This document shows, piece after piece, positions 25,977-36,688 of a stretch of 64,000 nucleotides of DNA. Numbering within the stretch: the stretch's first letter is position 1; every line of letters begins with the position of its first letter. Made by a program: the position numbers and the translations under genes. Below the pieces are notes generated by a model. The model did no database searches and was not told where the DNA came from. It worked only from the letters and a program-made list of their open reading frames with translations. The DNA lies in NCBI GenBank assembly GCA_001599595.1, contig BCHH01000011.1:889894-953893 (forward strand), written 5' to 3'. This stretch comes from Beverwykella pulmonaria (Eukaryota; Ascomycota; Dothideomycetes; Pleosporales; Melanommataceae).

Positions 25977-28013
25977 CAATCTCGTCGTTCGGAGGGTATC
26001 GTAGAATACAATTCGAGAAATTTTTACGAAAGTTTTATGCGCAAGTTGTGTAAGTGTTGTGAGGTCAAACTGAAGTGCTCTGAAGTGCAGTCCGTCTAAT
26101 ATCTTAGGATGCACTTTTAGTAAATCAAGATACTTGTCTAGACACATGGCAGAGCTTTCGGGGATGGTCTTTGTTTCTGCAGTGAAAGTTGACAACGGTG
26201 GCTCCCGATGCAACAAATCCATACTTGCCAAGGGCATGTATTATTAAGTGGTTGGTTCTATATCACGTGGTTGATGCCAAGTCCCGACATGGGCCTTGGT
26301 GCCTTAGGGTAAAACTTCCTCGTCCTTCTCCTCCACCTTGTCCATCTCTCCTCAGCCATCATCAACAGCCTCATTGTACGCCCAATAGACTAATATGGCT
26401 CGATTTCTATCCCCACCTACCATCCCAACAAGTTCGACACGAACTCAAACTACTTGCGTTGTTTTTTGCATTTATTTGATTCTTTGCTTTTCTGTATATA
26501 GTCCGAGGCCGGGTGGCCAGCTCCCACTCAGAGTACTACGTACTACGTACTCTCCAATATCTGTAGGCCCCTGAGTACCCTCGGAGGGTATCTCATCGCT
26601 CGCACGTGACTGGGCCATGAGAGTTCTCACATGAGACTAGACTACGGGAGCTGGCCCTGAGCTTACGCCCCCAAATCAAGCGTTACAAACAAGATAAACA
26701 CCTAATCCCCTGATGATGATGCGTGAGAGATAGATCTGGGTTTATTTCAATAATATGAACTGAATTTAGGTCTATGATAAGTGCAGCTCTAGTTCTACGA
26801 AGAGAGTTCGAAAGCAGTGTGAGCCTCTCTCCTACCGACTAACACCCGGCTGTGTCGCAATATAATCCGTACAAGCGGGACTCGGATTTTGTGACTAACC
26901 AGTGAGTCCAGATAAAAGACGGACATCCGAACGCCTATGAATAGGTGCAGCTAATCAATCCAGCCTCCTCCCTGTCTCATATAACACACATTACCTACGT
27001 TCCAGTAATTTGCAAAAATTTTTATTCTCAGAAAAACTTGGAATTGAGCGGCCACCTTTAATTGATTCATTGTAACCAGAAATGGCAGGGAAATACCAGA
27101 GCAGCTTCGCCGCCGTCAAGCCAACATTGATGTTCCTTAAATTTTTTTTCTTGGTATGTAACTCGGCATTTTGAAACACTCTGCAAGTTCAGTAAGAGGG
27201 GACGCTGAGATGCAAAGTGTCCTTTAAGCGGAAGTGTCGAAGAAAGAGAATCTAAATAAAATTTCGGTCTCCGAAGCTATACGTGAACTGCCCTGAAGGC
27301 GAGTCTTGCCAGAAATGAGATTCTTAGATTGTCTTGAACAGACTAAAACGTAGGCTTCCACTAGGTATGTAAGAGTCGTACAAAGAGTCTCTGACACAGC
27401 TTTCCGCACCTGCACCTGGAGGAGGTGTCAGGGCGCGTAACTCTTAGAAAAGTTTTTTAAATTGCGCGAAAACACTCTCAACTAATTCTTCAGACATGCT
27501 TTTCTAGGCTCTTAGTAGTTCTTTGTCATAGAGCCTCTCTATAACAATGTATGATCTGTTATTGTGCAACAAGGAGCAATAGACCTCTGGGATAGGAATA
27601 GTAGTGTTTTCAGTTGAGTATTTTCGGTTGCACCTTCCGTTAGGTGGACTCGACACACTATTTTGACAATTTTGCGTTTTAAGATCAGGACGCGAAGACT
27701 ATCTCGCAAATAAAACTTCTCCATAGTATGCAGCGCTAGTCGTGTCAAGAAATGGCGGACAGAAGCGCTGTTGAAGGCGAGATGTTCGGTGCCGTTATGT
27801 TGTGTTTTTATATTATATCTAGGCGGAACATATATGGGTATCATTCCGAGATCGTGCGATAAACGGAAAGAGAGCAGATTCTCTCGTGTGACGCAGAGGT
27901 GGAGAACAGAAGCAGTGTTGTGGAGTGAGAGCGGTGTTTTTAATTATCTTCCTTTAATATAATCTTGGATATTATTAGTATTATTCATAGAGTCCCATAT
28001 ATAAATCCATTTA
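25977..28013. other. About 2 kb without a supported gene
   Basis: Only small frames without domain motifs occur. A short repeat GTACTACGTACTACGTACT lies near 26530. The region between 26900 and 27960 is AT-rich and looks like decayed repeat sequence. No tRNA other than the one at 28014 was found. Confidence 0.35.
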
Positions 28014-28134
28014 GCATCGGTGGTTTAGTGGTAAAATTAGCCGTTGCCATCGGCTAGCCCCGGGTTCGAGTAAGTTATTGGCTGGCTTTAAACAAAGCAA
28101 GTAACTAACGCAATGTTAGTTCCCGGCCGATGCA
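28014..28134 (+). tRNA. tRNA-Gly(GCC) interrupted in the T-loop
   Basis: All tRNA parts are present. The acceptor stem GCATCGG pairs fully with CCGATGC, followed by discriminator A. The D-arm GTTTAGTGGTAAAAT also fits the A-box consensus. The anticodon stem AGCCG/CGGCT is fully paired, with loop TTGCCAT and anticodon GCC. The T-stem is CCGGG/CCCGG. The T-loop TTCGATT is split after TTCGA (28065-28069) by 50 bp and continues TT at 28120-28121. The A-box is intact, whereas the B-box is broken after GGTTCGA. A T7 Pol III terminator follows. Without the insertion this is a normal tRNA-Gly. Whether the interrupted copy is transcribed or processed is unknown. Confidence 0.88.
28070..28119 (+). other. 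50-bp intron-like insertion in the tRNA T-loop
   Basis: It starts GTAAGT and ends GTTAG, with a consensus branch site ACTAAC at 28104-28109, ten bases before the end. That is the architecture of a fungal spliceosomal intron. It can also fold: AGTTA/TAACT outside GCTTT/AAAGC, or AACTAAC/GTTAGTT at the 3' end. Ordinary nuclear tRNA introns sit after position 37, not in the T-loop. Confidence 0.8.
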
Positions 28135-28147
28135 TTATAAGCTTCAA

Positions 28148-28154
28148 TTTTTTT
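28148..28154 (+). terminator. Pol III T-run terminator of the tRNA gene
   Basis: Seven T residues, 14 bases after the tRNA 3' end, as expected for RNA polymerase III termination. Confidence 0.75.
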
Positions 28155-28559
28155 ACCTTTGCTTTCAATGTTCCATAGTGACACTCGTCTTAATTTTTGT
28201 CTCCTTCTTCTCCATTTTGGGTACTGTGGGATATGCCAAGAAGCGCAGATAAGCGAGGTGAACGCCACATGCACCGCCACGCCCCACATGTCGCTCCTGC
28301 CACGCGATTCATCAAACCCCCGCCATCTTAATTCCACCTCCATCATTTGATGGCGACGTCTGCCTAAGCGCTGGTACATAGCCTCATAATCCAAACTGTA
28401 GCTCAATTACACGTGTGCTTTTCACTGCCACACAGTCACGCTAGACTCGATGACGTGAAAGTGGCCTTGAGTCCTCTCCATCGCGCGCTGGAGAGCTCTA
28501 CTTACTTCTAAGTGCTAACACACTCACCGCAACTTCCAGATTCCAACCACCCGCTCGCC
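28155..28559. other. Intergenic, promoter of the MUG113-like gene
   Basis: About 400 bp between the tRNA terminator and the CCATGG start at 28560. Small frames on both strands lack motifs. Confidence 0.4.
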
Positions 28560-30146
28560 ATGGCATTCTTTGGACAGACACCAGAGTCGCTCCTTCCACG
28601 ATCCGACTCGAAGAATCCTGCTACAACCTGCAAAGGAATCACTAAGACCGGTCGACCCTGTAGACGCGATATCGATACTGAGAAGGCGTCCCGGAACAAT
28701 GGCGTTTTGGCTGTAGTCTCGGTTGCAAGCGATAGCGATGAGGATGACACAGGAGCCGCGGCATTCTTCTGCTGGCAGCACAAGGATCAGGCAGAGCAGT
28801 TGGCTGCCGCCAATGCTGTGGCGCCACAGGGACATGATACACAGCTGTATCCCCTGAAAGAGCGGAGTAGTATTGATACGCTGGTTGCACGGCTAGGTGT
28901 ACTCGAGGTCAATGAACCTGAGCAGGCGCCCGAGCGAAGGAGGAGGAAGAGCAGGCCCGAGGACAGGACCTCTGGGAATAGGCCACCGAGGAGGGTCAAC
29001 CGCCCACCGACATGGAATACGGTTCAAGGTCCATTGATGTCGGTACCGAGCGATCTGATGGCAGAGGGAAAGCAACTTCATCAGCGGTCGGGAGGACGAC
29101 CTATCCAAAAGAAAAAGTTGGGATTTTGGGCAATGTGCTGTGTGGGGAGCGCAGATGATGACTACGTCGAGGTGGTAAGACATAAGAGAAGGACTCAAAA
29201 CCAGGCTCCCCCTCCGAGTCAGGATACCTCGGATCCATTCGCACAAGCCCCGCCTCGAGTCCGCCACGGACGGACTAGCCGACCGAATGGCAGTTCCTCA
29301 GGCCAGACATCCACCGCAAGGCCAGTGAGCAGCGTGCCGGCACGGAAACCACTGGGCGAGAAGCCCGCTCGACCGCTCAACAAGATCTCACCGGGCAACT
29401 CGGAAACAGCGAATCTCCTTGCGTACATCCCAAAGGCCCTCACACCCCAATTGACTTCTCTACTGCTGGCCGAACTCTCAAAGCCCATTTCGCCGTCCGA
29501 CGACGAAGGCTACATCTACATATTTTGGCTGACTCCAGAATCCTTGGGTCCTGCGCCATCTTCCGAGGCTTCCACTCTACTTACTCCTCCCTCACGACCA
29601 GAACAAGGACGACGGACATCAGATGTACTCCGACAATACTCGGTGAAATCTCCTCGACAACCTCGACCTAATGCGCCTCAAGCTAAGACAGGCGATTCGA
29701 ATACCGACAGCAGCGACAAGAACACCATTTTTCTCAAGATCGGACGAGCTTCCAATGTTCATCGCCGTATGACCGAATGGACGCGCCAATGCGGGTACTC
29801 ATTGTCCTTAGTGCGGTTCTATCCCTATGTTTCTTCTACTCCTTCGCCGTCACCGAATGCATCGCCTCAGACGTCACCAGCGCACTCTCGTCGACAATCG
29901 TATCAGAACAGACCTGCGGACCCAGTTCGACGTGTTTCGGAAGGCGTGCGCAAGGTACCGCATGCGCATCGCGTTGAGCGATTGATTCATATTGAACTCG
30001 GCCAACAGCGCGTTATGAAGAAGTGTGAGGCTTGTGGAAAGGATCATAGGGAGTGGTTCGAGGTGGATGCTTCTCGCGAGGGCGTCAAGGCGATCGATGA
30101 AGTCGTGAAGAGGTGGGTTTCATGGGCCGAACGGGCAAATAACTGA
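28560..30146 (+). CDS. GIY-YIG/T5orf172 domain protein (MUG113-like)
   Basis: A single uninterrupted exon; the Met at 28560 sits in a CCATGG context and gives 528 residues. The N-terminus (about 20-90) has a small Cys/His motif, CKGITKTGRPCRR ... FFCWQHKD, typical of this fungal family. A long low-complexity Arg/Pro/Ser linker follows. The C-terminal T5orf172 domain (formerly DUF1766) shows GYIYIFWLTPE, FLKIGRASNVHRRMTEW, VERLIHIEL and CGKDHREWFEV, covering the Y-Y, R and E positions of a GIY-YIG-like nuclease fold. A serine/proline-rich insert of about 40 residues splits the fold before the Glu helix. The S. pombe relative is known only as a meiotically induced gene; a nuclease role is plausible but unproven. 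Confidence 0.85.
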   Translation: MAFFGQTPESLLPRSDSKNPATTCKGITKTGRPCRRDIDTEKASRNNGVLAVVSVASDSDEDDTGAAAFFCWQHKDQAEQLAAANAVAPQGHDTQLYPLKERSSIDTLVARLGVLEVNEPEQAPERRRRKSRPEDRTSGNRPPRRVNRPPTWNTVQGPLMSVPSDLMAEGKQLHQRSGGRPIQKKKLGFWAMCCVGSADDDYVEVVRHKRRTQNQAPPPSQDTSDPFAQAPPRVRHGRTSRPNGSSSGQTSTARPVSSVPARKPLGEKPARPLNKISPGNSETANLLAYIPKALTPQLTSLLLAELSKPISPSDDEGYIYIFWLTPESLGPAPSSEASTLLTPPSRPEQGRRTSDVLRQYSVKSPRQPRPNAPQAKTGDSNTDSSDKNTIFLKIGRASNVHRRMTEWTRQCGYSLSLVRFYPYVSSTPSPSPNASPQTSPAHSRRQSYQNRPADPVRRVSEGVRKVPHAHRVERLIHIELGQQRVMKKCEACGKDHREWFEVDASREGVKAIDEVVKRWVSWAERANN

Positions 30147-33808: not shown

Positions 33809-35569
33809 TCATAAGGTGTCGCTAGCAAGGTCTTCAGCCAAGCCTTCTAACTCTTCCTGTCTAAACGGAATCCATAACCTCTCCGTCCCCATGGCATCCT
33901 TCCTACTCTCCACCATCTGATGATCATGGAACTCCTTCAATAGCGTCCTGAAACCGACCTCGCTGGAACAAACAAACTGTTCCACAGCTTTGATATACAG
34001 GACCCTGTACTCGACACCTTGAGCAGACTCGGTGCTCATATGTTTTGCGCGTACGATCTTCTTGTTTCGTGGTGTGGCTGGCTCGTCATCTTGGTCAAAA
34101 TCTCGAACGTCGTCCATGAGAAGCAGGCCAAGCTGCTCTTCAACGAGGATCTTGAAGAGGGATCGGGCATTCTCAGGCAGAGAGCGGAGGACAAAGCCTA
34201 CGCCATCTCTGCCTCCAACCCTTTTGCCACTACGGCCCAAGAGCTCGTTCACAGTCTCTACGACGTCTATTTCAGCATCATAGGGTGCGAATGTCGTGGC
34301 ATCATGGAAGAGGAACTTGTACTGGGCTTTCAGTCCAACATCCCATAGCAAAGGGAAATTAGGCGTGTCAGCGGTGCAGATAAGGTTGATTTGTGGATGT
34401 GCAGCGAGTGTTGCAAGCATGGATGGTGTAGGTGATTTTCGAAGTAGAGGCGAGTCGATCGAGTTGAAGATGATGGGAATTGGGTGCGGCGGCGGGTTCT
34501 CCATCAGATAATCGAGAAGGTAGGCAAGTAGGGACGTGGGCTGATTAGGCAGTTTTAGTTTGGAAGGGATCGCTACTGATGCCACAGTCGTTAAAATCTC
34601 CTTCATGCTTGTCCCGGATGTATACCCATTCACGACAACAATCGGCGGAGTTTTCTTCGTCCCCTTGTAGGCTGCGTGTCCTGCTAAATGTTCGTAAAGA
34701 TGGGCAGCGAATGCATCCGCTATGGATCGTTTCGAGCCATAACCATAAAGGCAAATGTTGAAGCCCTCATCCAACTCAAATATCCACTGGTCGTAGGCAC
34801 GGCTGTGCAGTTCCAACAAAAACTCCTTCTCCGGCTCGTGTCGATCCCGGTGCGCCTGTGTTGCCTGAAAGTATTCATCGTGATTTAAAAGACTCCCAGA
34901 AGGCAGAGTATTGTTGGATGTCTTTGAGCCACCCGGCCGATTCTGCCAGAAATACTCCTCATGGGAAGGGAGGTCTTGAGGCGGTGTTGGCGAGCGCTGC
35001 TTCCGCGGTCGGCCTACCTTTCCTTTTCCTGATCCTTTTGGTCGACCACGTCCGCGCTTCGATGGTGTATCCGGTACTGCTAGCTCTTCTAGTGCGCCAG
35101 CCTCTGCGTCATCGCCTTCGCCTTCGTCGTCGTCGTCGTTCAAGATCTGCTGCGCCAGGATCTCCTCCTCGTCCAATGCCTCCTCATCACTGTCAACCCC
35201 GTTTATTGTGCGTTCGATGAGCTTCCTGTTGCTTTTTCGTCGCGCGCTTCGGTCTGCATTGTGGACGATAGTCGGGGCACCATTACGTGTCTCGTCCTTG
35301 GCCGACTTGGTGGGAGTTTCGAAGACAAGTTTACGACTTGACCTTGGTGTCCCCCCATTAGCGCCGTTTATCAGCCCAGTCTTTTTGAGAATCGACCTGG
35401 GGGTTCCATTTTCTACGAGTTGCAGTGTTCTCGTCTTTCGCGACGGTGTCTGCACCTCAGGGGCGGCCTCTTGCCCGTCTGATTCATCGTCGTGCGGGAG
35501 GCGGGTGCGCAGTTTTCGTGGTGTGGATGCTTCTGGTTCGTCTTCGGTCCGCTTTCTTTTTGCACTCAT
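33809..35569 (-). CDS. ORC2: Origin recognition complex subunit 2
   Basis: One exon; the Met at 35569 (MSAKRKRTED) gives 586 residues, near the family norm. The disordered basic N-terminus includes two AT-hook-like runs, KRGRGRPKGSGKGKVGRPRK (about 170-190). The ORC2 core follows: DEGFNICLYGYGSKR (degenerate Walker-like loop), VVVNGYTSGTSMKEIL, IPIIFNSIDSPLLR, NLICTADTPNFPLLWD and FLFHDATTFAPYDAE, then the winged-helix C-terminus with GFRTLLKEFHDHQMV. ORC2 is a core subunit of the nuclear complex that marks replication origins and loads MCM helicase. The frame stays open upstream to 35641 but without a further ATG. Neighbours are unrelated, as usual for a housekeeping gene. Confidence 0.95.
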   Translation of the reverse strand: MSAKRKRTEDEPEASTPRKLRTRLPHDDESDGQEAAPEVQTPSRKTRTLQLVENGTPRSILKKTGLINGANGGTPRSSRKLVFETPTKSAKDETRNGAPTIVHNADRSARRKSNRKLIERTINGVDSDEEALDEEEILAQQILNDDDDEGEGDDAEAGALEELAVPDTPSKRGRGRPKGSGKGKVGRPRKQRSPTPPQDLPSHEEYFWQNRPGGSKTSNNTLPSGSLLNHDEYFQATQAHRDRHEPEKEFLLELHSRAYDQWIFELDEGFNICLYGYGSKRSIADAFAAHLYEHLAGHAAYKGTKKTPPIVVVNGYTSGTSMKEILTTVASVAIPSKLKLPNQPTSLLAYLLDYLMENPPPHPIPIIFNSIDSPLLRKSPTPSMLATLAAHPQINLICTADTPNFPLLWDVGLKAQYKFLFHDATTFAPYDAEIDVVETVNELLGRSGKRVGGRDGVGFVLRSLPENARSLFKILVEEQLGLLLMDDVRDFDQDDEPATPRNKKIVRAKHMSTESAQGVEYRVLYIKAVEQFVCSSEVGFRTLLKEFHDHQMVESRKDAMGTERLWIPFRQEELEGLAEDLASDTL

Positions 35570-36688
35570 CGTGTGGCTATGTGTGGCAAGGTGGTTGCTG
35601 AGGGTCGAGCTGTCAACGCGACTTTTCGCGTTCGCCGGCAAAACGTTTCACCATGCCCGAGACTTAGCGGCTCCAGTTAAAGGATCTCCCACAAGCGGCT
35701 GGGCACGGTGCCTCAACACTACGACGAACACCCTTACCGTATCGGTAACCCCAGTTGCAACTCCTGCTGAGGTTGCCTTCACATGAACGGTGTTGATGCA
35801 TCCATGCACCCTCTTTGGCGCTTCTGGCCCAAAGTCCGTAGCCTGCAATCACTCTGAAAAAAAAGAGTTTGCAATGATCAACAGCCACGCTTGGCGAGGA
35901 CTGCGACAAGACACCCAAGAGAATGTCGTCTGAGTCTTAAAACAAGGCTAACTTGACTGTGCGACTTGGCATTGCAGTTTCTGAAGCCTTGATCGCAGAG
36001 ACTTAATTCAGACCTCGGAGGACGCCTCGGAAGACCCCGTTTTTTACCTCTCGAAATGCGGATCATCTCTGGCTAGCTCGCTAGCGCAATATGAACAACT
36101 ATTTTGACTGGCTGGGAGCTCTACGACTCCAAGTTTCGGCACCGGCCAAGGTTCGGGCAAACCGTGCAACAACGTCACAGACATGCCGAACACCAAAGAT
36201 CTGCAACACTTTTCCATCTTTTCACAAGGATGCGGCTCAACTTGGATGTACGCAACGGGCAAGCCGAGGAAGCGTGCCTCGCTACCTGCCTCTTCTTATC
36301 AAATTCACTTACCGCCGCCTCCACCACATGCTAAATCGTGCTAGGGTCCATACCTCAACACCTCCAGTGCGGAGCATCACCGGTGGTATTCTTACCCTAT
36401 GACGTCGTCGGGGTTCCATTTGTGGAACCTCCTCCACCTCGGATGCAATCTGCATTCTCTACGGGCAGACACCGACTCTGTGCCAGCATCTGGGGGGTGG
36501 TGGACTGGGTACCGTCATGAGAGGGTAGAGTGAGTAGATAAGAGACCACAACTCCCCCACAAAATAGAACATCCCCACCATCTGCCCTACCTGTCACGGA
36601 AGTATTTGATTTTCCGTACACGTTTTGGACCTTGTTCACATTTCCTCGCCACCAGGACTGGCTGGCACCAGCAGAACACCACTCCATC
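35570..36688. other. Divergent intergenic region between ORC2 and a sugar MFS
   Basis: About 1.1 kb. Promoters of both genes must lie here, ORC2 leftward and the MFS rightward. Frames at 36091-36402 and 36397-36690 have no motifs. No repeat was found. Confidence 0.4.

Follow-up and report, generated by a model that had tools for sequence, protein, structure and literature searches.

The tRNA-Gly(GCC) gene on the forward strand at positions 28014–28134 of the window (the whole 64,000-nucleotide stretch of Beverwykella pulmonaria DNA analysed here) raises the question of what interrupts its T-loop between A58 and T59: an insert of 50 bases that looks like an intron of a protein-coding gene. The sequence-only reading had proposed a U2-type intron in a spliced Pol III transcript, with a one-off insertion, a silent pseudogene or an introner-like copy as further options. 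Searches of the genome (45.6 Mb in 31 contigs) support the first proposal: the insert is very likely one of a set of U2-type spliceosomal introns residing in nuclear tRNA genes transcribed by Pol III and spliced by the spliceosome. The intron type itself is known and the U6 gene provides a Pol III precedent; as a tRNA intron it would constitute a new class.

The features of the gene are collected in Table 1. Direct reading confirms the insert, its splice-site-like ends and its branch-site-like motif as described earlier, along with good stems (acceptor 7/7, D 4/4 with one G-U pair, anticodon 5/5 and T 5/5, read by eye). The junction cannot be slid: the first base of the insert is G and that of exon 2 is T, while the last base of the insert is G and that of exon 1 is A. 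The expectation that precise GT-AG removal leaves a standard tRNA is borne out, as ARAGORN calls tRNA-Gly(gcc) after the excision and nothing before it. Scanning of the window by ARAGORN and by Rfam at its cut-off found no tRNA; with relaxed thresholds the Rfam model gives the gene 16.7 bits against a cut-off of 29. A weaker upstream element, ATATAA, is found at -57. The gene neighbours a T5orf172/MUG113-domain protein gene (28512–30146, plus strand), and the window also holds an ORC2 gene (33809–35641, minus strand) whose protein is 83% identical to ORC2 of Melanomma pulvis-pyrius (Pleosporales, Dothideomycetes) and 81% to that of Pleomassaria siparia.

Table 1. Features of the interrupted tRNA-Gly(GCC) gene and its flanks (positions in the window).
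Feature	Position	Strand	Basis or remark
TATATAAA, -16 to -9 of the gene, putative upstream element	27998..28005	+	closer than the usual ~-45 of other genes
tRNA-Gly(GCC) exon 1 (positions 1-58), up to and including TTCGA in the T loop	28014..28069	+	sequence reading; ARAGORN
Anticodon GCC	28046..28048	+	read from sequence
50-base spliceosomal-type intron at 58/59: GTAAGT ... CTAAC ... TTAG	28070..28119	+	signals common to 28 other Pol III-gene introns of the genome
CTAAC, resembling a branch site; its A (28108) lies 11 bases before the intron end	28105..28109	+	sequence reading
tRNA-Gly(GCC) exon 2, positions 59-73	28120..28134	+	sequence reading; ARAGORN
T7 run resembling a Pol III terminator, 13 bases 3' of the tRNA	28148..28154	+	sequence

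A search for Gly(GCC) genes with the same insert shows that the two remaining ones in the genome are both interrupted at 58/59 as well, next to ordinary 37/38 introns; their inserts have the same signals and a different sequence. Since both other Gly(GCC) genes carry different inserts with the same signals at the same place, the window insert is beyond chance. The suggestion of a one-off proved wrong on a larger scale too: genome-wide searches revealed at least 24 tRNA genes with 28 spliceosomal-type introns, and with the intron of the U6 snRNA gene the number reaches 29. Beside these 24 genes, 30 tRNA genes without such an intron were found. The census combines the search with the window gene, short patterns, the Rfam tRNA model, spliced exons and arm patterns; it is a lower bound, as 63 of 1174 candidates were scored in the Rfam search, whose list lacks at least two intact genes (L083 and L172) known from other searches.

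The short T-arm patterns gave 46 matches with 12 interrupted tRNA genes among them, and a second pattern set gave 77 with 12, one of which was new. Patterns with GT after TTCRA are not enriched as such (46 matches against 76 for the reversed control and 77 against 135), and their counts were dropped as a proof of introns because the reversed controls gave more matches. Two A-box patterns yielded mostly chance matches, one of seven regions fetched being a tRNA (L175); a tRNA-Tyr pattern found no gene in the genome, and a 25-base tRNA-Gly pattern had no match in viral contigs. Two candidates from the T-arm script, L134 and L072, were rejected as being without tRNA context or without the branch motif. 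A tRNA-like sequence with an ill-fitting acceptor stem (L167, G000:C17:711695-711764, minus strand, 31.1 bits) was left out of the counts; it may represent a further interrupted tRNA gene or a fragment of organellar origin.

With the spliceosomal-type introns removed, ARAGORN recognises every one of the 24 genes as a tRNA; unspliced, all 24 are missed or misread by it. The anticodon given by ARAGORN differs from the assigned one in 6 of the 24 spliced genes (Arg-2, Val-2, Pro-CGG, Asp-2 and two Leu-TAA), which is ascribed to its placing of the 37/38 intron. Anticodons of the intact genes were read by eye.

The signals are uniform among the 29 introns (28 in tRNA genes and one in U6). The start is GT in 28 and GC in one, with the reservation that four of the 58/59 introns (L017, L022, L045 and L146) were found only by patterns requiring GT and their GT is not independent; the end is AG in all 29. 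The 5' splice site follows GTRNGY, with G at +5 in 29/29, T (25) or C (4) at +6 and a purine at +3 in 25/29. YTNAY with its A 8–15 bases from the end is present in every intron (at 9–12 in 27 of them) and would be expected in 23.5% of shuffled interiors (run on 28 introns); the stricter CTRAY/TTAAY branch motif occurs in 28/29 against 9.3% in shuffles. The lengths are 47–58 bases with one of 72. This longest intron belongs to the His(GTG) gene (L058), and the GC-AG one (GCAAGT...AAG) to Leu(TAG) (L170, minus strand).

The same anatomy is seen in introns of protein-coding genes. Among 38 ORF-bridging mRNA-type candidates in the window, 16 were kept (those no longer than 70 bases and with the donor GTRNG(T/C)), 20 being dropped as longer and 2 for other donors. 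The strict branch motif is present in 10 of the 16; these ten introns are 45–66 bases long (median 52.5) with the branch A 8–14 bases from the end, while the tRNA introns in the same comparison (n = 27) have a median length of 52 and the branch A at 9–14. The tRNA introns resemble fungal protein-coding U2-type introns in length near 52, in both splice sites and in having the branch motif some 10 bases before the intron end; they differ from them in the host, a tRNA gene with a Pol III terminator-like T run. The classic 37/38 introns, which are substrates of TSEN and often share a gene with the spliceosomal-type ones, are of another kind: their place is fixed, none of 18 has GT/GC..AG ends, and 2 of 18 have a branch motif. 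T4 runs were found in 1 of the 29 introns against 24.7% in shuffles (p 0.003); their avoidance was dropped as a proof of Pol III transcription, being non-specific, as 1/11 mRNA-type and 0/19 classic introns have such runs.

The 28 tRNA introns occupy ten places, often alongside an ordinary 37/38 intron, and none of them is at 37/38 (in the Leu genes the gap recorded at 37/38 also takes in part of the variable arm). The site 58/59 is used 14 times: in Gly(GCC) three times, in Ala(AGC), Arg(ACG) and Asp(GTC) twice each, and once each in Val(AAC), Pro(TGG), Pro(CGG), Cys(GCA) and Ile(TAT). Four introns are at 53/54, in His(GTG), Trp(CCA), Leu(TAG) and Lys(CTT), and one is at 52/53 in a second Val(AAC) gene. 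The D arm is interrupted at 10/11 in Leu(CAG), 12/13 in Arg(ACG), 15/16 in two Asp(GTC) genes, 17/18 in Phe(GAA) and 20/21 in Pro(CGG), the acceptor stem at 6/7 in two Leu(TAA) genes, and the variable arm once, in Ser(GCT). Four genes (Arg-2, Pro-CGG, Asp-1 and Asp-2) have two spliceosomal-type introns each in addition to the 37/38 intron.

Transcription of these genes cannot be taken for granted, as the A box is divided by introns in the D arm and those at 58/59 break the B box at its end. The earlier concern that the insert breaks the B box holds as far as the box is split at or beside its edge, but its TTCRA core is whole in every T-arm case. An intron placed before T54 or G53 can be read as replacing the missing B-box edge by its own terminal AG. 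Fission yeast Pol III genes lean on an upstream TATA, and here a TATA-like element at -60 to -28, usually at about -45, precedes 20/22 interrupted and 19/30 intact genes (Fisher p 0.028), with 22–23% in shuffles.

The U6 snRNA gene (L173 69-301, G000:C3:4042637 region) also has an mRNA-type intron, in which GGATGACA is followed by GTAAGT...CTAAC...CAG and then by CGCTCAATC; the junction was judged by eye against GGATGACACGC, which we take to be the U6 sequence. The gene carries TATATATA at about -30, a T11 terminator and a B-box-like element (GGTTCGAATC) just beyond the terminator, and Infernal scores the unspliced locus at 61.6 bits. U6 introns have reportedly been gained repeatedly in fungi, according to a 2016 paper. 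According to the consulted parts of two papers, the fission yeast U6 intron is removed by the spliceosome (PMC8917221; PMC10484740). The introns of the tRNA genes, hosts that are probably transcribed by Pol III, share with those of U6 in fission yeast and others the order of GT, branch motif and AG and would likewise be removed by the spliceosome; the difference is that here the hosts are tRNA genes, at least 24 of them, and that there are several introns per gene.

If RNA polymerase II read these genes within longer transcripts, spliced like mRNA before the tRNA is cut out, this would explain both how the spliceosome gains access and why interrupted A and B boxes are tolerated. Such a reading appears very unlikely in view of the T runs (at least T5, no more than 30 bases past the 3' end, in 25/25 genes, that is 24 tRNA genes and U6), the TATA-like element near -45 in most genes, and U6, which follows the same scheme.

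A still smaller chance is given to ectopic introns of the archaeal or red-algal type, which are cut by the tRNA endonuclease via a bulge-helix-bulge (BHB). Their places are indeed similar: in the consulted part of a 2014 review (PMC4090602), archaeal introns are located at 53/54, 20/21, 45/46, 59/60 and others, and ectopic tRNA introns are reported for nucleomorphs, while an excerpt on the red alga C. merolae (PMC9602550) describes tRNA-Ile(UAU) introns at 12/13 and 53/54, two sites used here too. As here, such introns lie at non-canonical D- and T-arm sites and may number up to three per gene. Nevertheless the BHB helix is lacking in our introns: pairing of intron +2..+5 with 3' exon +2..+5 gives four pairs in 0/29 and three pairs in 2/29, much as upon random re-pairing (0.7% and 7.0%; the test covered the full central helix). 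The structure of the introns is not unusual (mean z of +0.48; -1.91 for the window intron), and a BHB would leave GT-AG, G at +5 and the branch motif at a fixed distance unexplained. The spread over ten places is also not what a single enzyme reading tRNA structure would predict.

The pseudogene reading, in which the inserts silenced spare tRNA copies, deserves even less credence. It agrees with the 2014 review, where, in the part consulted, insertions in D and T arms of eukaryotic tRNA genes are mostly regarded as pseudogenes (PMC4090602), and with the uninterrupted gene kept for Ala(AGC), Lys(CTT), Ser(GCT) and Asp(GTC). It fails because in several families all found copies are interrupted: three of Gly(GCC), two each of Val(AAC), Arg(ACG) and Leu(TAA), one each of His, Trp, Cys, Ile(TAT), Leu(TAG) and Leu(CAG), and also Pro(TGG), Pro(CGG) and Phe, though Pro and Phe were searched less fully. 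The search with spliced exons recovered intact Ser, Ile-AAT, Gly-TCC and Ala genes at 97–100% identity and, at 76%, the intact Asp gene L172. Genes whose exons are very short (Leu-CAG, Asp-1 and Asp-2) and the diverged Arg-1 escaped it, as would strongly diverged intact copies. Intact stems, terminators and splice signals, with inserts unlike in sequence and alike in signals, also speak against silencing. That the mature tRNA keeps the insert, either with a larger T loop or by folding around it, has a practically negligible probability: the sequence would still let the T stem close round a 58/59 insert, but the same signals occur in acceptor-stem, D-arm, T-stem and variable-arm inserts, where retention would break the cloverleaf, and paralogues vary by 0 to 72 bases at one site.

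Splicing by the spliceosome would proceed as follows. RNA polymerase III would produce a precursor tRNA with the spliceosomal intron and, in many genes, also with the classic 37/38 intron. The former intron would be taken out by the spliceosome, which would recognise it by GTRNGY, by CTRAY as the branch site and by YAG; TSEN and tRNA ligase would presumably remove the latter, and the joined exons would fold into a standard tRNA. On balance it is probable that a large part of the tRNA set depends on the spliceosome, including every found His, Trp, Cys, Phe and GGY glycine gene, that intron gain in Pol III genes is ongoing, probably by reverse splicing into precursor tRNA, and that the capacity for translation is tied to that for splicing.

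According to a 2026 review (PMC13149111), in the part consulted, tRNA splicing relies on neither the spliceosome nor GT-AG signals; if spliced as their sequence suggests, the introns described here would be an exception on the scale of a genome. No report of spliceosomal introns in tRNA genes was found in the mainly open-access journal literature searched, exact phrases included; the closest precedent is the fission yeast U6 gene with its spliceosome-removed intron. The consulted portion of the tRNAscan-SE 2.0 paper (PMC8450103) mentions non-canonical introns for archaea and holds no word beginning with "spliceosom". Standard tRNA finders would overlook or misinterpret genes of this kind, which happened here with ARAGORN for all 24. 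The genome would also offer a natural system for the action of the spliceosome on Pol III transcripts that are short, lack a cap and have exons of as little as 6–20 bases, and its translation would be dependent on splicing.

The origin of the introns can be approached through filled and empty sites. The intron-free Ala(AGC) gene L007 has the same exons as the intron-bearing L016 and L052, and the Ser(GCT) genes L061 and L068 are one exon base and the intron apart. In the Lys(CTT) genes L063 and L175 all exons and the 28-base 37/38 intron are identical, and the 53/54 intron is present in L175 only. Since the paralogues match in exons (Ser except for one base) and differ in the intron, the introns were gained, or lost exactly, after the copies arose; exact loss sparing the 37/38 intron would require a spliced RNA intermediate. 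Such sites in otherwise identical genes (Lys, Ala) would bear on spliceosomal intron gain in general. For U6 introns the usual idea is that reverse splicing happens by accident close to the catalytic site of U6; as tRNA is not a component of the spliceosome, this idea does not extend to tRNA genes. Introners and introner-like elements are a form of recent intron gain in fungi, to which filled and empty paralogues with identical exons are similar; they differ from the present case in that no repeated intron family was found among the introns compared. The window insert has no copy elsewhere in the genome, and in 378 pairs of the 28 introns only two Asp pairs, with scores of 33 and 25, lie above the 99.9% null score of 20 (the next pair scores 19), the likeness being limited to the Asp gene pair, so the proposal of an introner-like copy finds no support. 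The flanks of the Lys(CTT) genes L063 and L175 are unlike (13/37 bases match upstream and 19/45 downstream), and the two genes form a clean filled/empty pair for work on intron gain.
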